Source: Symmachiella macrocystis (lineage in GTDB: Bacteria > Planctomycetota > Planctomycetia > Planctomycetales > Planctomycetaceae). From it: DNA of 64,000 bases. How positions within the stretch are numbered: position 1 is the first letter of the stretch; each line of letters starts with the position of its first letter. The notes under the pieces were generated by a model. It was given only the letters and a program-made list of their open reading frames with translations. It was not told the DNA's origin and did not search any database. Of the stretch, positions 43,544 through 58,946 are shown piece after piece. The translations under genes were made by a program, and so were the position numbers. The stretch lies in contig NZ_SJPP01000002.1 of NCBI RefSeq assembly GCF_007860075.1, positions 930,001 to 994,000 of the forward strand, read 5' to 3'.

Positions 43544-43911
43544 AGCTCATTTCTCCCACTCTGGAAATTAAAGGGCCCGACAACATCAACCGCTTGATCC
43601 GTTGCCCTCTAAGCAAGTATCAGCCGAGATTCTGCAGCGACACCCAGTGAGCCAAAGTCTGATCACAGATCGGATGTAATCTCAACGGGTATTAACGGCA
43701 TTAGTGGTTCTATGGCGCCGCTGAAGAGGACCGTGACCTGGAATGACCACTAAAGTCGACACGATTTCCATCGCTGATCAAGTAGGTCCGGCTGTACCGG
43801 ACAATAGCGGGTTCGAAGTATAGTTGCAGAATGGGACAGCTATTCTTCAGAACGCCCAACCGGGAATGGCCGGTGAAACCGGCCCTACTTCTACTGCATT
43901 CGCCGCATACG
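43544..43911. other. Intergenic region with one short repeat
   Basis: No coding frame or RNA gene is seen. Holds the left copy of a short direct repeat (43868-43888). Confidence 0.5.
43868..43888. repeat. Short direct repeat, left copy
   Basis: GGCCGGTGAAACCGGCCCTA, a palindrome; it recurs with one change at 44337-44357. The two copies flank the 43912-44292 gene. Confidence 0.7.
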
Positions 43912-44336: not shown

Positions 44337-44357
44337 GGCCGGTGAAACCGACCCTAC
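44337..44357. repeat. Short direct repeat, right copy
   Basis: GGCCGGTGAAACCGACCCTA, one base different from 43868-43888. It overlaps the stop codon of the dehydrogenase gene. Confidence 0.7.
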
Positions 44358-47147: not shown

Positions 47148-50100
47148 ATGCATCACTTTTCCCGTCTGATACTCGCTGTTCTGCTTGTTACGGCAAACTC
47201 TTACTTCCTCACCGCAGCCGAGCCAAGCACCGGTGAGATTTATGATCCGCCCGTAGCCAAAGCGTCCAACGCAGGGGCCGCGGCGATTGAGGGCATGGAG
47301 ATCCCCGCAGGATTCCGCGTCGAACTATTCGCCGCTGAACCACTGTTGGCCAATCCGGTCGCGTTTTGCATCGACGAACAGGGACGATTTTTCGTCGCCG
47401 AAACCTTCCGGCATCACGCCGGCGTGACCGACACGCGTGGACACATGTATTGGCTCGACGACGACCTCGCCTGCCGCACCGTCGCGGATCGCGTGGCGAT
47501 GTATAAAAAACATTTCTCCCCCGAGGTCTTCGACAGCTACGGCCTAGAACATGACCGCGTGCGGATGATCGTCGATAGCGATGGCGACGGACGTGCCGAC
47601 AAAGCCACGGTCTTTGCCGACGGATTCAACGACCGCGCCGTAGGCATCGGCGCCGGTGTCCTCGCCCGCGACGGCAAACTTTGGTACGCCTGTCTGCCCG
47701 ACCTGTGGCAATTGGAGGACACCGACGGCGATGGCCGCGCGGATGTCCGGGAATCACTGCACACCGGATACGGCATTCACGTTGGATTTTTAGGGCACGA
47801 CCTGCACGGATTACGCTTCGGTCCCGATGGTCGATTGTACTTCAGTATCGGCGACCGCGGCATCAACATTCAGACCGAGGGGCGGCATCTGTTTTATCCC
47901 GACACCGGCACAGTCCTCCGTTGTGAGCCGGACGGTTCAAACTTAGAGGTCTTCGCCAGCGGCCTGCGCAATCCGCAAGAATTGGCATTCGATGATTTTG
48001 GAAACCTGTTCACGGTCGATAACAATTCCGACTCCGGCGATAAAGCGCGGCTGGTCTATATCGTCGAAGGGGGCGACAGCGGTTGGCGGATTGGATTTCA
48101 ATTCATCACCTCCCCCACGTCGCGCGGACCCTGGAACGCGGAAAAACTGTGGCACCCAAAATTCGACGGACAAGCCGCCTACCATCTGCCACCACTGGTG
48201 AATCTGGCCGATGGACCATCCGGACTGACCTATTATCCCGGCACAGGTCTGCCGCAGCGATATAACGGCCACTTCTTCCTCTCCGACTTTCGTGGTTCAA
48301 CAGCCATCAGCGGAGTGCGTTCATTCGCAGTCGAACCGGACGGAGCGTCCTACAAAATCGCCGACGAACACAAGTTCCTCTGGCAACTATTAACGTCCGA
48401 TGTCGAATTCGGCGACGACGGAAATCTGTATCTGCTCAACTGGGTCAATGGCTGGGAAAAAACCGGCAAAGGCCGCATCTATAAAGTCTTCGACCCCAAA
48501 ACCCGCGCCGAGCCGATCGTGGCGGAGGTCCTCGCCCTCACCCGCGCCGGCATGTCGTCGCGATCCAATGAAGAGTTACAAACGCTGCTCGGCCATCCCA
48601 ATCAGCGAATTCGCCAAGCCGCACAATTCGAGTTGGCAGCGCGTCCCGCCGCAGAAGCAGTTTCCGTTTTCACCACTGTCGCACAAAACCCCGCCAAACG
48701 CCTCGCGCGGCTGCACGCGATTTGGGGACTCGGCCAGATCCTCCGCGTCAAACACCTCAAGCCGGCGTTCGCGACCTTGGTCGCGCTGCTGAGCGACGAC
48801 GATGCGGAAGTCCGCGCCCAGGCGGCAAAGACGATTGGTGACACCAAAGACAACACCTCCGCCCGCAGCGCATTGATCACCTTACTGAGCGATCCCGCCC
48901 CGCGCCCTCGTTTCTTCGCAGCGCTGGCACTGGGAAAAATGTCTGGTGAAAACAAGACGATCCAACCGCTGCTAGAAATGTTGCGCGCCAACAACAACCA
49001 AGATCGCTATCTGCGGCACGCCGGTGTGGTCGGCTTGGCAGCCCTTGAGGAAGCGGATTTATTGAAACATGCCGATGACAATTCCGCAGCGGCACGGATG
49101 GGAATTCTCTTAGCGCTGCGGCGGTTGGAAAGCCCGGCGATTGCCACTTTTCTAAATGATGCCGACCCTCTACTGGTCGTCGAAGCAGCTCGCGCCATCA
49201 ACGACGTGCCCATCAATCCCGCCTTCCCGGAATTGGCCGCTGTAGCGGGATCGCAGCGCCCCGAATTCCTGACCGACGAGGCACTGCAAAAGCGGATTAT
49301 CAATGCGAATTTCCGATTAGGCGAGCTGTCGAACGCCAAAGCGCTTTCCGGCATCGCTTTGAACGAATCGCTGCCCGATGTGATCCGCACCGAAGCCCTC
49401 TTGGCACTGGCCGATTGGCAATCTCCCAACGGCAAAGATCGCGTCACTGGCTTATGGCGGCCATTGCCTGCACGGGCTATCCAAGACCTAGCAGCCACGA
49501 TCGACACGGACCTCAGCGCGCTACTGCAAAGCAATGCCTCCCCAAACGTCAAAGTCGCAGCGGTGAACGTGCTGAGCAAATTTGGCGGCCCGACATGGGG
49601 GCCGCAACTCCTGGCACTCGTCAGCGATTCCGCACAGCTGGCAAAGTTGCGTGCCGAATGTCTACGGGCGTTGGCAGCCATCGATGCCCAGGAACTCCCC
49701 GGCGCCGTCGCCTTGGCCATTGAGGACAAAGACGCAAACGTGCGTAACACCGGCCGCGAACTATTGGCCAAAACCGCCCCCGACCGAGCCGTCCCGCTAC
49801 TCGCCGAGACCGTCACAAACGGCTCACTACGGGAACAACAGACCGCCTTGGAAACGCTCGGCCACATCAAATCCGCCGCCGCCGATGATCTGTTGCTGAA
49901 CTTACTCGCCGAGGTAGCGGCCGACAGTATCGCCGAGAACATCCGCTTAGACGTCCGACAAGCAGCCGGCCAACGTCAGCGCGCGGACGTAGTGGCCGCA
50001 GTGCAACAACACAACGCAGCACTCGGCAACGAGGATCCGGTTGCGTTGCATCGCGACGCACTCACCGGTGGTGATGCGGGGCGAGGTAAAAAAATCTTCT

Positions 50101-52724: not shown

Positions 52725-53116
52725 CACTCTGCCACAACAACTCAAAGCCCCCAGTTGCCCGTGCCCCCCCCTCCGCTTGGGCACCCGCGCAATCCATATC
52801 GGCCTCGCTGCTCTACCGCGCATTTCGCGGATTTGGGGGGAGCAGGCAGTTCCGATTGGCCAAAATTCCGCCGATTCCATCTTAGAACAGCATTTTTGCC
52901 AAAAAACCTCTCCTTTTTCCTCCAAACGTCTTAAAAGCGGGGTTGCAACGAATCCCGATTTTTAGTTTTATCCCGACCGGTCTTGAATCCTCGACTGTGT
53001 CGTTCAGGATGCAAGAAGCATCGTCCACGTTTTGGACAGGGTGGCAAAAACGGGACATGGAAAAGATGCACACTAGTATCACGGACGATTCGAGTGCTAA
53101 ACCAGGAGAAACAAGG
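52725..53116. other. Intergenic region upstream of the DUF4096 gene
   Basis: About 390 bp with no recognised gene. An upstream in-frame extension of the DUF4096 gene is possible, but it lacks a ribosome site and family similarity. Confidence 0.5.
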
Positions 53117-53791
53117 ATGACGGAATTCCAGACGGAACTGGACAACGCCTGGCAAATGTCAGACGAACTGTGGCAACAGATTCACCCGCTGTTGCTGGAA
53201 GACTCGCCCCCCAAACGCACCGGACGCAAACGCGCCGATTGGCGGCGGATGATCAATGGCATCGTCTACCGCGTACAAACCGGATGCAAATGGAACAAAC
53301 TGCCCAAACAGTTTGGTGACGACAGTACCGTGCACCGCTGGTACCAGCGGTGGTGCAAAAGCGGTATGATTCATAAGGTTTGGTCGAAAATCACGACGCA
53401 TTGCGCCGAGCTAAGCGACCTGACTCCCGAATGGGCTGCGATTGTTTCCGCTCCGCCAGCAATTGCCGGCGTGGTGGGTCAAACAACAACGCCCGCAGCG
53501 ATTCCCACAGCGACACCGGCAGCCGCCGAAGTCACACCCGAAGTCGCCGCCAGTGCCCCTTACGCACCGACTGTCGCCATCGCCCCGGAAACAGTTTCCG
53601 ACAGCGAACCCTCGACACCGATTCCGACGCAAATTCCTGCAGCGGCATCGACCCCACAACCGCGTCCGCAGATCGCGGAAGAAACGCGACACGACTATCA
53701 ACCCCCGGGCCATACGCCCGCCGCGAGTACTCCGGCTCAACCACAACACCAGCCCTACTCGCCAGAAGAATCCGATCGCCGCGCCGCCTAA
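53117..53791 (+). CDS. Domesticated IS5-type transposase N-terminal (DUF4096) domain with Pro/Ala-rich tail
   Basis: A 224-residue protein from the ATG at 53117, preceded by AGGAG. Residues ~10-100 are the helix-turn-helix-like DUF4096 domain of IS5-family transposases: MSDELWQQIHPLLLED, GRKRADWRRMINGIVYRVQT, GCKWNKLPKQFGDDSTVHRW, YQRWCKSGMIHKVW. In a transposase a DDE catalytic domain would follow. Here it is replaced by ~120 residues rich in Pro, Ala and Thr (TPAAIPTATPAAAEVTPEVA). No terminal inverted repeats or partner ORF are seen. A good ribosome site and own terminator suggest a co-opted DNA-binding protein. Confidence 0.8.
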   Translation: MTEFQTELDNAWQMSDELWQQIHPLLLEDSPPKRTGRKRADWRRMINGIVYRVQTGCKWNKLPKQFGDDSTVHRWYQRWCKSGMIHKVWSKITTHCAELSDLTPEWAAIVSAPPAIAGVVGQTTTPAAIPTATPAAAEVTPEVAASAPYAPTVAIAPETVSDSEPSTPIPTQIPAAASTPQPRPQIAEETRHDYQPPGHTPAASTPAQPQHQPYSPEESDRRAA

Positions 53792-53822: not shown

Positions 53823-53863
53823 AAATCCCACGCTAGCCCCCTCGGCCTGCGTGGGATTTTTTT
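53823..53863 (+). terminator. Rho-independent terminator after the DUF4096 gene
   Basis: AAATCCCACGC (53823-53833) pairs with GCGTGGGATTT (53849-53859), followed by TTTTTTT. It lies 31 bp after the stop. Confidence 0.9.
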
Positions 53864-53870
53864 ATTGTAG

Positions 53871-53908
53871 GGTGCGTCGCGACGCACCTTTCTATGTAGG
53901 ACAACAGA
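53871..53908. repeat. Palindrome plus outer inverted-repeat arm, left
   Basis: GGTGCGTCGCGACGCACC is a perfect 18-bp palindrome (53871-53888). From 53879 to 53908 the sequence, ending TAGGACAACAGA, is matched in reverse at 55016-55045 with few changes. Confidence 0.8.
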
Positions 53909-53967
53909 TTCCCCCAATCAAATCAGCCCCCCAAGTGCCTACGATGGCTTGAGTGAACCAATCTAAA

Positions 53968-54170
53968 AGAAAAACCTCACGCAAAGCCGCAAAGCTCGCA
54001 AAGAGATATGCAATGTCAAAGCAGCTAGCAGCGGTTTAAATAGCTCACGCCCTACCTGCTCAAGCAATTTCCTTTTAAAAAAGTTATCCCCACCACGCAG
54101 CCGTCGTTCCTAAATCAGTTTATCCCGGTACCTCCTTGGCGAGCTTGGCGGCTTTGCGAGAGGCTTTTTT
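53968..54170. repeat. ~200-bp fold-back element, left
   Basis: Arm AAAACCTCACGCAAAGCCGC (53971 onward) is matched inverted at 54134-54170 (CTTGGCGGCTTTGCGAGAGG). The loop is ~120 bp of non-coding sequence. A near-identical element lies at 54785-54990. Confidence 0.8.
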
Positions 54171-54205
54171 AATTCCCCGAAGGCAACAAGTCCCTATTAG
54201 AACAA

Positions 54206-54631
54206 TCAATGACGCACACCGTCAGGCAGTTGCAACATCGGACGATCCGCTTTGCGACGGATCCAGCAGATCGGTCGCCAGACAATCGGATTCCGCAGTA
54301 AGGCGATCTCCAACCGCCGTTTGCCCGGAAAATTCAACAGGCTCAAACCGATGAACATCGTCAACAGCCCCTGCCCCGGCAAAAAGATCATCGCGATCCC
54401 CGCCGCCAACAGTACAACTCCCAGCAAATTCTTCAGGATCAGCAGCATCCAACGGACCGCGGGGTGCTGAGCCCGCCAACTTCCAGCGGCCGGTTGATCG
54501 GAAACAAAATAATCCGCCCGCATCCGCGTCACTAACACCGGAATGATGAGCAACGCCCCCACAAACGACACAACGGAAAGCGCGCCCAACCACCACCACA
54601 ATTGTTCGTGGGCCGCAATCTGTTCCCACAT
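54206..54631 (-). CDS. PGPGW-type membrane protein
   Basis: A 141-residue protein with two or three hydrophobic stretches. The LPGQGLLTMFIGLSLLNFPG segment matches the PGPGW family (putative transmembrane protein, function unknown). The C-terminal part is basic (RRKADRPMLQLPDGVRH). It is enclosed by the two fold-back elements at 53968-54170 and 54785-54990, and by the outer inverted repeats at 53879 and 55016. ATG at 54631; no clear ribosome site was noted. Confidence 0.82.
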   Translation of the reverse strand: MWEQIAAHEQLWWWLGALSVVSFVGALLIIPVLVTRMRADYFVSDQPAAGSWRAQHPAVRWMLLILKNLLGVVLLAAGIAMIFLPGQGLLTMFIGLSLLNFPGKRRLEIALLRNPIVWRPICWIRRKADRPMLQLPDGVRH

Positions 54632-54679
54632 AACCGTTCATCCTCCGTGCTATACACGCGGCACAACATCAACAAACCC

Positions 54680-54712
54680 CCCTCTCCCCCTGGGAGAGGG
54701 CTGGGGTGAGGG
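54680..54712. repeat. CCCTCTCCC/GGGAGAGGG palindromic repeat
   Basis: CCCTCTCCCCCTGGGAGAGG (from 54680), continuing into GCTGGGGTGAGGG. It matches a palindromic element known from many unrelated bacterial genomes and lies between the PGPGW gene and the right fold-back. Confidence 0.7.
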
Positions 54713-54784
54713 TTTTCGCCCAACAGAGGACACCCCATGTCTCACCCAAAGAGCTAAACGCCTTCTGAGTCGTTCCACAAATGG

Positions 54785-54990
54785 TAAAAAAAACTCACGC
54801 AAAGCCGCCAAGTTCGTAAAGAGATCTGCATAGCTCCATGAATTCACAGCCGCCCCTCGTAAGCCCACACGGTCGGTTGAAAACAATTGGTTTGAAGTCT
54901 CCCCAAACATGAACCATCCATCACGAACACCTGTTCGTCCCAGCCAAAACCTCTGCGGCTTGGCGGCTTTGCGTGAGGTTTTCTTTTTCA
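54785..54990. repeat. ~200-bp fold-back element, right
   Basis: ACTCACGCAAAGCCGCCAAG (54792 onward) is inverted at 54951-54990 (CTTGGCGGCTTTGCGTGAGG). Same family as 53968-54170; arms match over about 30 bp. Confidence 0.8.
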
Positions 54991-55015
54991 ATGCTGTTGT
55001 GTGATGTATTGTCCG

Positions 55016-55045
55016 TCTGTTGTCCTACGTAAAAAGGTGCGACGC
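55016..55045. repeat. Outer inverted-repeat arm, right
   Basis: TCTGTTGTCCTACGTAAAAA onward is the reverse complement of 53879-53908 with few changes. It is ~1.1 kb from its partner. Confidence 0.75.
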
Positions 55046-55057
55046 GTCCGACATTTG

Positions 55058-57019
55058 TCACAGCTGAAATCCCAGGGCCCGTAGTTCGTCGCGGACTTCC
55101 GCTTCTTGGAGCAGATTACGAAACGCGCGAACGGCGGCGGACTGCGCACGGTCCTCTGGCACGGCGAAATCGTAATGTTCCTCCTGCAGCGGAATGAACG
55201 CCAGATCGTACAGACTGGCCACCGTCTCGATCGCCACGCCCCAGTCGGCCGATTCACGGGCGACAGCGGCGGCGACGGCGTTGTGGGACTTCGCTTGAAT
55301 GCCATACCCGGCCGGCGGCGCCTCGGCATCCGGGTGCACCTTGGCCAGCAGTTGGTCGATCAAAATCCGCGTCCCGCTACCGGTGTTTCGATTGACCATC
55401 GCACACGCAGCATCCGCACAGGCAGCGGCAACGGCTTGTTCCGCCGTTTTGTTTTCAAACCGCGCATCGCCCCGGCGATAAACAATCCCCTGCAAGCGGC
55501 GGTAGCCTTCGATCAACGTCAGTCCCGGTTTCAAAAACGGACGGTTATACGCACCGGTCGCGGCATCCATCAGATGAATGCCGGCTATATCACATTCCCC
55601 GCGGGCCGCTGCCGTCAGTCCCCCCAGGCTGCCGACGTTGAGCACCTTGACCGCAAACCCGCGTTCTTCCATCCGCGACAACAAAAAATCCAAGCCGACA
55701 CAATGGCTGCCAATGGCGACGAAATCCGCCGGCCGCAATTCGCGGGAAAGAAGTTTCACTTCAACGCGCGTGTCGGCATCCAGGATTTCCGTTTGCGAAT
55801 CAATCGTGAGAAACCCATCCGCCCCGCTGAACGTCGTGACCGACCCCGAGCCTTTGCCCATTGGATACGCCGCCAAATCGTCGCCGCGGCGCACTAAACT
55901 GACAAGCAGATATTCCGTACGGCCCCGTTCAGAGTTCACCCGCAGTGGCAACGTAGCGGTCACCGTCGCCGCTTGGGCATCTTTGCGGGCCGCCAGCGCG
56001 CGAATCACGGGGGCGACGAATTCGTGAAACGTGAAAATCGCCGACGTGGGAAATCCCGGCAAAATCACAATCGGTTTGCCGACGGTGACAGCGAGACAGA
56101 TCGGCTTGCCCGGCTTCAAAGCCACGCCGTGCGCGACAATGCCGGGGTCTGAAAGTTCGCTGACCACGCGGTACGAGAGATCCCCTGCCCCTTTCGACGT
56201 TCCACCCGAGAGCACGACAATATCGCAATCAAGCCCCTGTTGGACAGCCGCCCGCAATTTCGTTTCATCGTCGGCAATCACCCCCAGCGGAACCGGTTCG
56301 CCGCCCAATTCTTCCACAGCGGCCGACACGATCGCAGCGTTGGAATCGTAAACCGCGCCGGGCGTACTCGGTGCGCCGGGAGGAATGATTTCGCTACCGG
56401 TCGAGATCACTGCCACGCGCGGTTTGCGAAACACCTCGACACGGTCCCGCCCAATTGCCGCCAAGACACCGATCTCCCGCGAGGTGAGCAATGCCCCGCG
56501 CCGCAAAACCGTTTCTCCCTTGGCAATGTCCGTACCGGCAAACGTAATATGTCCGCCCGCCGCAACAGCGCGGTTGATTTCCAACCTGCGATCCGCAGCA
56601 TCAGCAACGACATCGGTATGTTCAATCATCACAATCGCATCCGCACCGCGCGGCACAACGGCGCCGGTGGCAATAGGCGTCGCCGTCCCCGGCTGGACCA
56701 CGATCCCCGCTTGCACGCCGGGCGTGATGACTTCGTCGTTGAGTGAAACGGACCGCGGTGCATCTTCGCTGGCACCGAATGTATCAGCCGCCTGGACCGC
56801 GAAACCATCGACGTTCGCCCGATCAAATCCCGGCACATCAACCGTTGCCCGGATCTCATCCGACAAGACACGATTGAGCGATCCGCTGAGTGTCACGGTT
56901 TCCGTACCCAACGGTTGCAGCGTCAAATGGGCATGAAATCGCGCACGGGCTTCGTCCCGATCAATCACATCCAAAAACTGCTGCTGCCGTGCGGCCTCAT
57001 CAAGATTGTGCAAAGACAT
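55058..57019 (-). CDS. MoeA-like molybdopterin molybdotransferase fused to a periplasmic-binding-like domain
   Basis: About 653 residues from the ATG at 57019 (a TTG at 57031 is possible). Residues 1-~415 are MoeA: FDRANVDGFAVQAADTFGA, VAVISTGSEIIPPGAPSTPG, and VVLSGGTSKGAGDLSYRV, which bind adenylated molybdopterin and molybdate. The rest (~425-640) is a PBP-like ligand-binding domain: SLGGLTAAARGECDIAGIHL, MVNRNTGSGTRILIDQLL, SHNAVAAAVARESADWGVAI. In known proteins this domain is proposed to sense molybdate or molybdopterin. Last gene of a three-gene operon, starting 20 bp after the upstream moeA. Confidence 0.92.
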   Translation of the reverse strand: MSLHNLDEAARQQQFLDVIDRDEARARFHAHLTLQPLGTETVTLSGSLNRVLSDEIRATVDVPGFDRANVDGFAVQAADTFGASEDAPRSVSLNDEVITPGVQAGIVVQPGTATPIATGAVVPRGADAIVMIEHTDVVADAADRRLEINRAVAAGGHITFAGTDIAKGETVLRRGALLTSREIGVLAAIGRDRVEVFRKPRVAVISTGSEIIPPGAPSTPGAVYDSNAAIVSAAVEELGGEPVPLGVIADDETKLRAAVQQGLDCDIVVLSGGTSKGAGDLSYRVVSELSDPGIVAHGVALKPGKPICLAVTVGKPIVILPGFPTSAIFTFHEFVAPVIRALAARKDAQAATVTATLPLRVNSERGRTEYLLVSLVRRGDDLAAYPMGKGSGSVTTFSGADGFLTIDSQTEILDADTRVEVKLLSRELRPADFVAIGSHCVGLDFLLSRMEERGFAVKVLNVGSLGGLTAAARGECDIAGIHLMDAATGAYNRPFLKPGLTLIEGYRRLQGIVYRRGDARFENKTAEQAVAAACADAACAMVNRNTGSGTRILIDQLLAKVHPDAEAPPAGYGIQAKSHNAVAAAVARESADWGVAIETVASLYDLAFIPLQEEHYDFAVPEDRAQSAAVRAFRNLLQEAEVRDELRALGFQL

Positions 57020-57039
57020 GTAATCCGCCAAAGGGAAGC

Positions 57040-58293
57040 TTACGAGATCGAATCATACTGATAATACGTCACCTCACCACCCGGCGCGACGCCTTCACTC
57101 GACTCGGGAACAATGACAAAGCCATCCGCCCGCGTGGTGGAGGACAAGATCGAAGCGCCGCCGACAGCCAATGGTTCGACGCGACCATCGACAATGGCCA
57201 CGCGGACATAATCCATACGGCCGACAGCCGAAACAATTTTACGTCCCACCGGTACGCTTCGACGAGCATACGGCCAGTCGGCACTGCGTCCGCCCAACAA
57301 CCGGATTGCTCGGCCGGCGAAAAAGTCATACGCACAGAGGCACGAGACCGGATTGCCAGGTAATAAAAACACCAACCGCTTGCCGATTGTTCCCATGCCG
57401 GCCGGACTGGAGGGTCGCATGGCAATGCCGTGAATCGCCAATTCGCCTTCGGCCGCTAAAACCATCGGAGCATGATCCTCCGCACCGACACTCGACCCGC
57501 CGGTCACCAACACCACATCGGCGCCCGGGGCGATCAGCGCTTCTCGAATCGCCTCTCGCGAATCGGCAAGCGCGGAACAGGATTCCAGCTCGCCGCCATC
57601 TCGGGCAATCAGTCCGCCGAGTAGGTGCGAATTAGCATCGAAGATCTGATGCGGCTTACGTTCACTCCCCGGTTGTACGATCTCGTTTCCGGTCGCCAGA
57701 ATTCTTACCCGCGGTTGTCGAATTATCGGCACAGTCGCGCAGCCCACCGACGCCAATAAACCGACATCCTGCGGACGCAAGCGGCGGCCGGCGGCGGCAA
57801 TTGTTGTGCCCTGTTTGACATCTTCACCACGGGGAGCGACATGCTTCTGCGGAGCGACGGCGGTGCTGATCTCGACACGATTGTCGTTCTCGCTGGCATA
57901 CTCCGCTGGCAACACAGCATCGGCGCCGTCGGGAATGGGGGCTCCGGTCATGATCCGCACCGCTTGTCCGGCTTGCACACCGCCCGCGAACGCATGTCCC
58001 GGCAACGATTCTCCCACGATGTCAAAGGCAAGCCGGTTATAATCCCCCGCCCCGGTCGTCTCCGCGCCCCGCAATGCATAACCGTCCATCGCCGCACGGT
58101 AAAATTCGGGGACGTCGATGGTCGAGACAACATCGGCCGCCAACACCCGACCATGCGCTTCAGCTATCTCCACCTCTTCGCCGGAGAGCGGAATGCACTG
58201 TTGATCGATCCACTCCCGGACCTGCGCAACGAGTGCCCGCGCGGAAAAACCGCGCATGCGGACATCGAGATGGGAGGAAGAACCGCCGGTCAT
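57040..58293 (-). CDS. moeA: Molybdopterin molybdotransferase MoeA
   Basis: A 417-residue enzyme that inserts molybdate into molybdopterin. EIAEAHGRVLAADVVSTIDV, FYRAAMDGYALRGAETTGA, and MTGAPIPDGADAVLP open the chain. VRILATGNEIVQPGSERKP and VVLVTGGSSVGAEDHAPMV hold the molybdopterin site; FLLPGNPVSCLCAYDFF follows, then domain IV. Its ATG overlaps the stop of mobA by four bases, and it is followed closely by the moeA-PBP fusion. Two MoeA paralogues in one operon could divide molybdenum and tungsten insertion, but this is only inferred. Confidence 0.95.
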   Translation of the reverse strand: MTGGSSSHLDVRMRGFSARALVAQVREWIDQQCIPLSGEEVEIAEAHGRVLAADVVSTIDVPEFYRAAMDGYALRGAETTGAGDYNRLAFDIVGESLPGHAFAGGVQAGQAVRIMTGAPIPDGADAVLPAEYASENDNRVEISTAVAPQKHVAPRGEDVKQGTTIAAAGRRLRPQDVGLLASVGCATVPIIRQPRVRILATGNEIVQPGSERKPHQIFDANSHLLGGLIARDGGELESCSALADSREAIREALIAPGADVVLVTGGSSVGAEDHAPMVLAAEGELAIHGIAMRPSSPAGMGTIGKRLVFLLPGNPVSCLCAYDFFAGRAIRLLGGRSADWPYARRSVPVGRKIVSAVGRMDYVRVAIVDGRVEPLAVGGASILSSTTRADGFVIVPESSEGVAPGGEVTYYQYDSIS

Positions 58294-58946
58294 TGTTGTT
58301 CCATGGCAAAGCCCGCTGCTGCAAGGGCAGCTTGATAGTCTTCAGGGGTATTCGTATTCCTCAGCGAGTCCAACGCGGGGTCCGTGCAGCGCAGGTCCTC
58401 GACGTCTATCTCACAAACGTCCGACGATTCCAACAAAAAAAAGGGCCGCAACCGGTGTTCAGCAATCAAGGCACGGACTTTCACCTCGACGCTGCGGCGA
58501 TAAACGGCCGCTAAGGGGTGATGATATTTTCCGTCGCGGGGAATCGCGATGTCATGGTATTTCAAACGCCCAATGATTTCGACGACGAATTCCGGTTTGA
58601 GCAACGGAGCATCACAGGCGGCAGCATAGGCCGCCTCGATCGATGCGGGCAACGCACGCAAACCGGCAGCCAATCCCCCCAACGGACCGAGCGCCGGCTG
58701 TTCATCGCGGGCAATGATCACCTCCGCAGGCAATTCAGGAAGCTCCTGCCCCTGAGCCGCAACAACGACAACCGGCGAGACAACCGTCGACAGCACGCGC
58801 ACGACACGTTGTAACAACACCTCCGGCCCAAAGGGCAACCACGCCTTGGATTGCCCCATTCGGCGGCTTTCGCCCCCACAGAGAACGATTCCAGCAACAT
58901 TTTCGGTCGTTTCAGCTTCCACGCGTTCTCTTTTCACTTTCGGCAA
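58290..58946 (-). CDS. mobA: Molybdenum cofactor guanylyltransferase MobA
   Basis: A protein of up to 218 residues. VAGIVLCGGESRRMGQSKAW is the nucleotide-binding signature of MobA, and AAACDAPLLKPEFV is the metal site. It adds GMP to the molybdenum cofactor, yielding the bis-MGD form. The start is ambiguous: TTG at 58946, GTG at 58937, or GTG at 58922, which has a weak AAGAGAA. The stop overlaps the moeA start (ATGA). It heads the three-gene operon. Confidence 0.92.
   Translation of the reverse strand: MPKVKRERVEAETTENVAGIVLCGGESRRMGQSKAWLPFGPEVLLQRVVRVLSTVVSPVVVVAAQGQELPELPAEVIIARDEQPALGPLGGLAAGLRALPASIEAAYAAACDAPLLKPEFVVEIIGRLKYHDIAIPRDGKYHHPLAAVYRRSVEVKVRALIAEHRLRPFFLLESSDVCEIDVEDLRCTDPALDSLRNTNTPEDYQAALAAAGFAMEQQ

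Follow-up and report, generated by a model that had tools for sequence, protein, structure and literature searches.

The window analyzed here is a 64,000-bp stretch of the genome of Symmachiella macrocystis, a planctomycete (genome G000; 7.57 Mb in 6 contigs). A small gene in this window is framed by a nested set of inverted repeats; the features of the locus are summarized in Table 1. The outermost arms (53878-53908 and 55016-55046) are 31 nt long and 90% complementary, inverted where an initial sequence-only reading had placed them. Between them are the two fold-back elements of ~200 bp that it described, with arm pairs of 34 nt at 88% (53970-54003 and 54135-54168) and of 27 nt at 93% (54786-54812 and 54959-54985). 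The one small membrane gene that it saw in the centre is the sole gene between the fold-backs, and its PGPGW product matches PF09656 with 38.4 bits against a cut-off of 23.3. The 18-bp palindrome reported at one edge (53871-53888) is indeed perfect. Three features are absent from that reading: a GTAG at 53867-53870, immediately 5' of the palindrome, a CCCTCTCCC..GGGAGAGGG repeat at 54680-54700, and a second, decayed palindrome on the right-hand side.

Table 1. Features of the locus, in window coordinates. G001 and G002 are two other genomes of the same genus.
Feature	Position	Strand	Basis
GTAG-tagged REP, left copy: GTAG + perfect 18-bp palindrome	53867..53888	+	75 genome places; GTAG counts; ssDNA hairpin
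REP 3' tail (TTTCTATGTAGGACAACAGATTC..) and further sequence up to the fold-back	53889..53967	+	consensus tail of 53 copies; includes the outer arm of the sequence-only reading
Left ~200-bp fold-back; loop family with several other genome copies	53968..54171	+	arm pairing; loop similarity; RNA fold z -4.20
PGPGW-family small membrane protein gene (bystander)	54206..54631	-	PF09656; same neighbour without elements in G002
CCCTCTCCC..GGGAGAGGG..GGGGTGAGGG dispersed repeat	54680..54712	+	same kind of module after some other REP copies
Right ~200-bp fold-back; loop unrelated to left	54786..54986	+	arm pairing; loop comparison; RNA fold z -5.56
REP 3' tail, right copy (outer arm, inverted)	54987..55032	-	arm match; equal place in G001
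Decayed REP palindrome, right copy	55033..55057	-	one mismatch in G001; 80% G000/G001 identity over these 25 bases

Within the window the palindrome has 2 matches with up to 3 mismatches (the one at 50045 has 3), where 0.09 are expected in shuffles, and the inner arm has 4 where 0.04 are expected. The outer tail alone is weaker, with 2 matches against 0.19 expected, a count equalled in 3 of 100 shuffles. As single-stranded DNA the left REP forms a hairpin of -8 kcal/mol (z -3.26). The single match in an Rfam scan, int-alpA on the terminator at 53826-53872, is below threshold (E 0.24; 23 bits against a gathering threshold of 35.8).

The surrounding DNA holds several other features. In an ORF at 53117-53788 the N-terminal domain of IS5-type transposases, DUF4096, stands alone, joined to a Pro/Ala-rich tail. 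A probable molybdenum cofactor cluster occupies 55058-58946. It includes a MobA-like NTP transferase and a MoeA that carries a PBP-like domain fused at its C terminus; the ORF between these two looks, by reading, like a second MoeA. A pair of GTAG REPs of another kind (GTAGGTCCGGCTGT.CCGGAC .. GGCCGG..CCGGCCCTAC) lies at 43782-43888 with the 86-bp spacing also seen at a RAYT gene of this genome, and a further single GTAG REP of other kind is present at 44337-44357.

The left palindrome and its GTAG belong to a dispersed family, GTAG-GGTGCGTCGCGACGCACC. A genome-wide search for other copies, as proposed for the arms in the sequence-only reading, located GGTGCGTCGCGACGCACC at 75 places in G000 with at most 2 mismatches, against 0 for a reversed-pattern control; 53 of the 75 were examined in sequence with 400-bp flanks. 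GTAG stands directly 5' of the repeat in 45 of these 53 copies and on the other side in none of the 53. The copies have a 3' tail in common, TTTCTA.GTAGGACGA.AGAT (consensus of the 53), and BLAST among them yielded 112 pieces downstream versus 3 upstream. Because the similarity lies almost wholly on the 3' side, GTAG marks the sharp 5' edge of the REP, as expected for RAYT-processed REPs (PMC8266576, PMC3733652; excerpts of both). Open frames of at least 250 codons, which make up 68% of the DNA fetched, contain 13 of the 53 REP copies and, for the fold-back arm dealt with below, 6 of 67 matches. With at most 2 mismatches, the REP occurs in 10 of 59 genomes, its own included. The exact 28-base pattern of REP plus tail was found in one stretch among the contigs of 84,980 species, a set that may omit the window's own genome or very near ones; the contig (102,754 bases) is from a Planctomycetales MAG, IP29b_bin.173. 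By its structure, copy number and location, the repeat is a member of the GTAG-REP class. Literature text searches with the palindrome core found no paper, those with CTCACGCAAAG found none about bacterial repeats, judging by titles, and searches for a prior description found no text naming the window's REP sequence.

The fold-backs are a second family, MITE-like and mostly extragenic. Their arm, CTCACGCAAAGCCGCMAAG, is present at 56 places (30 + 26) in G000 with at most 2 mismatches (control 0), and the fetched DNA contains 26 inverted arm pairs, of which 9 measure 72-84 bp and 17 measure 159-200 bp. A sequence model for this family has at least 72 matches in G000 and at least 94 in G001 (both strands counted), and 0 in G002 among the matches listed; matches occur in at least 6 of 25 genomes, G000 included. 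Comparison of 17 loops revealed a loop family common to several of them, with terminal inverted repeats present. The left window loop is similar to those at 2019283, 2323219, 2923939, 4297618, 4340331 and 1735498; the right loop matches none of the 16 others, and the loops of the two window fold-backs are unrelated to each other. One absent fold-back site, aligned with G001, displays no clear target-site duplication. At 32 RAYT loci (31 distinct), the fold-back arms gave weak matches in 8, at one of which (L146) they cluster ~1 kb downstream, and no clear pair around the gene; the idea that the arms are the inverted repeats of RAYT was dropped, as there was no clear case among the RAYT loci scanned.

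The association between the two families is one-sided. In 10 of the 53 REP copies the start of a fold-back arm lies 38-41 bp beyond the palindrome, on the 3' side, and in 3 further copies, the left window copy among them, an arm is found at +75 to +87 bp. An inverted partner arm lies within 400 bp in 8 of these 13 associations; the other 5 have none, which leaves room for separate repeats that cluster in gaps. The fetched G000 DNA contains two compact elements of ~250-270 bp with REPs at both ends, at C3:773164-773409 and around C1:3145548-3145809, the latter with 3 mismatches in one palindrome. Most of the 53 copies are single heads, a CCCTCTCCC-type module stands behind some others, and many fold-backs have no REP nearby. 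At C1:4128018, a REP and one arm are jointly present in G000 and jointly missing in G001. The sequence-only reading had held that common, dispersed arms with no association between inner and outer copies elsewhere would speak against it; the arms are indeed common, dispersed repeats, but inner and outer arms do occur together elsewhere, in the fixed-distance copies and the compact elements. It is possible, although we hold this only tentatively, that the REP head is a modular mobile element in which GTAG, hairpin and a ~40-nt tail are joined to interchangeable 3' modules (the ~200-bp fold-back, the CCCTCTCCC module and others), these modules being gained, lost and exchanged at a fixed head between sister species.

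In G001 the PGPGW gene is 94% identical, and both elements are at the same places. The left palindrome, perfect in G000, is altered in G001; the right-hand one, decayed in the window, has a G001 counterpart with one mismatch. Between the gene and the right element, the unaligned stretch measures 1446 bp in G001 versus 112 bp in the window. In G001 a WD40-repeat gene (L124, 3415-4629) separates these two; the window lacks it. The DUF4096 ORF has 96% DNA identity in G001, with zero differences over at least 52924-53313, a level of identity which suggests that it was perhaps recently exchanged or is strongly constrained. Selection on the left element, considered on account of its near-identity in G001, is unsupported: identity is complete beyond the element as well, over at least 52924-53313. 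In G002 the PGPGW protein shares 61% identity and the MoeA-fusion neighbour is kept (75.5% identical), with a gap of under 100 bp between the two genes. The 10-kb stretch around this PGPGW gene is free of the REP even when 5 mismatches are allowed; its single arm match is weak (3 mismatches) and falls within a long open frame ~1.4 kb from the gene. Since the MoeA fusion is missing from the ~1.5-kb flanks of all 18 further loci taken from relatives, no outgroup other than G002 is informative, and G002 has diverged too far to show an empty site to the exact base.

Gain and loss of the repeats were followed elsewhere in the genome by comparing G000 with G001. All 23 REP sites chosen were located in G001 and compared by BLAST, and 8 were aligned in full. 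The REP is present in G001 at 19 of the 23; the remaining 4 do not align across the REP. Among these, C1:4128018 is cleanly empty, at 188338 the REP's place is taken by other sequence, and 753763 and 773168 lie inside larger differing stretches. At 610818 and 787266 the REP is common to both genomes, and G001 has a CCCTCTCCC module behind it where G000 has none. For the fold-backs, 15 sites were chosen, of which 14 were located in G001 and compared by BLAST and 3 aligned in full: 8 align throughout, 5 do so in part or are rearranged, 1 (C1:2923939) is a clean absence, and 1 was not located. Sites 4340331 and 2323219, being rearranged in G001, were not counted among the empty sites. Overall, the repeats are gained and lost, yet most sites are old. 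The empty sites that the sequence-only reading had suggested looking for in relatives therefore exist in G001 for one REP and one fold-back elsewhere, but not for the window elements, which G001 has in both places; of the target-site duplications also sought, none was seen at the outer edges by reading the G000 and G001 sequences. In G000 a fold-back is split at C2:799443-799548 by a pair of GTAG REPs of another kind that G001 lacks, an apparent REPIN gain whose REPs match those beside the resident RAYT gene. REP pairs of this type, with 85-86 bp spacing, flank G000's own RAYT gene on both sides, and the sameness of the two supports RAYT-linked spread in the genus.

G000 has two REP_Tyr_transpos (NF047646) genes, both intact RAYT, with a RAYT of this genome at C1:3543977-3544426; one is flanked by other GTAG REPs and the second by a different inverted repeat, and the window's REP was found beside neither. 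It was likewise found at 0 of 7 RAYT stretches scanned in G001. In G002 it precedes a truncated RAYT frame, whose HUH motif is altered, by 24 bp, with two more places of REP plus RAYT fragment nearby, and in a genome of another genus (G019) it lies ~70 bp upstream of another RAYT fragment. An intact RAYT of a relative, in the G004:C140:2306-2563 region, is close to such fragments, at 60% identity. This position just upstream of truncated RAYT genes in two relatives points to RAYT mobilisation, a link that the sequences suggest for the window's REP in relatives only and through truncated genes. GTAG hairpins occur near 12 of the 19 RAYT loci scanned in the own and related genomes, and the window's REP at 2 of the 19, in a home-made scan without a chance control. 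At one locus (L154, genome G028) the RAYT gene is flanked by GTAG hairpins, GTAGGCTGGGTCGAGACCCAGC and relatives, at 947-1015 and about 2150-2190; to judge from its sequence, this is a REPtron built like the window's REP.

The symmetry of the locus is, with high probability, that of two separate copies of a composite of GTAG-REP and ~200-bp fold-back, in opposite orientation, in the intergenic gaps on either side of a resident PGPGW gene. By analogy with known systems, a RAYT/TnpA_REP protein of the HUH-Y1 family would recognise the REP when it forms a single-stranded hairpin with GTAG at its 5' foot, and would cut and join it; the copies would spread through extragenic space and then decay independently. 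The window's REP was presumably moved by such a RAYT, of which the partners seen are truncated genes in relatives. The fold-back may have ridden along with the REP or may move by another enzyme, and the two window copies, both present in G001, probably inserted independently.

The nested symmetry, with its long and 90% complementary outer arms, had been read as marking a composite mobile unit, or a recombination island, that these arms delimit and that includes the gene, and what moves in REPINs is presumed to be a pair of inverted REPs (PMC3116915, excerpts). The pieces are mobile-type repeats, as this proposal had it, but inclusion of the gene does not agree with what is seen: G002 has the gene and its neighbour without the elements, the interior differs in G001, the two loops are unrelated, the other two REP pairs in fetched G000 DNA span ~250-270 bp and not 1.2 kb, and the region has no match in 72,556 plasmid records. 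We consider such a gene-bearing unit extremely improbable, and a composite transposon with PGPGW as cargo was rejected on the evidence of G002 and G001.

Two other explanations are compatible with separate insertion of REP/fold-back copies. The fold-backs could be kept mainly as functional RNA elements, for instance to terminate transcription in both directions or to stabilise mRNAs at the ends of genes; their long stems, with A-runs before and T-runs after, their fold z scores (-4.20 left, -5.56 right) and the rarity of arm matches in long open frames (6/67) agree with this. However, the inverted arms by themselves lead one to expect stable folding, the left element is not alone in its high G000/G001 identity (at least 52924-53313, outside it, is identical), and a copy absent from a congener and a many-copy distribution fit a mobile element; that RNA function is the main reason for their retention seems unlikely. 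It is a serious possibility, although we lean slightly against it, that REP head and fold-back are unrelated families settling in the same gaps, the fixed spacing reflecting target preference. Other modules also stand behind REP heads and differ between G000 and G001 (610818, 787266), and many fold-backs lack a nearby REP, as expected if the families are unrelated; the 38-41 bp spacing in 10 of 53 copies, on the 3' side, and the REPs at both ends of two compact elements argue for a closer connection.

MITEs with terminal inverted repeats serve as the comparison class for the fold-backs. The resemblance lies in the ~35-bp inverted ends, the length of ~200 bp, the many copies and the one site empty in a congener; the fold-backs differ in having no recognised target-site duplication, no parent element found at the RAYT loci scanned, and loops of several unrelated kinds. 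GTAG-tagged REPs have been reported also in Planctomycetes (Di Nocera et al. 2013, PMC3733652, excerpts), and the REP family described here is like them in its short palindrome, the GTAG at one end and the many extragenic copies. REP units adjoining unrelated stem-loops are described in the same source; in contrast to the REPs in those excerpts, the window family is regularly associated with a ~200-bp fold-back, and terms from the window's sequence were not found in the main text. Inverted REP pairs, as at C3:773164-773409, are shared with REPINs as portrayed in parts of Bertels and Rainey (2011, PMC3116915), and G002 has six such pairs, 44-53 bp apart start to start. Unlike those REPINs, the two window copies are separated by 1.1 kb and enclose a resident gene; closely spaced inverted REPs in one hairpin are found elsewhere in the same REP family, not in the window pair. 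REPtrons, RAYT/TnpA_REP genes with flanking REPs (PMC8266576, PMC6006769; excerpts of both), have their likeness here in the GTAG hairpins near RAYT loci, a count that carries no chance control, whereas G000 has no intact RAYT flanked by the window's REP.

By analogy, then, the window pair would work like RAYT-mobilised REP/REPIN repeats with MITE-like companions, and a conspicuous symmetry is explained as a clustering of repeats. The analysis adds to the Planctomycetes a well-bounded GTAG-REP family with RAYT-linked relatives, and provides congener pairs in which gain or loss of REPs, REPINs and fold-backs can be read. It also carries a warning: inverted dispersed repeats around a single gene easily mimic a composite transposon.
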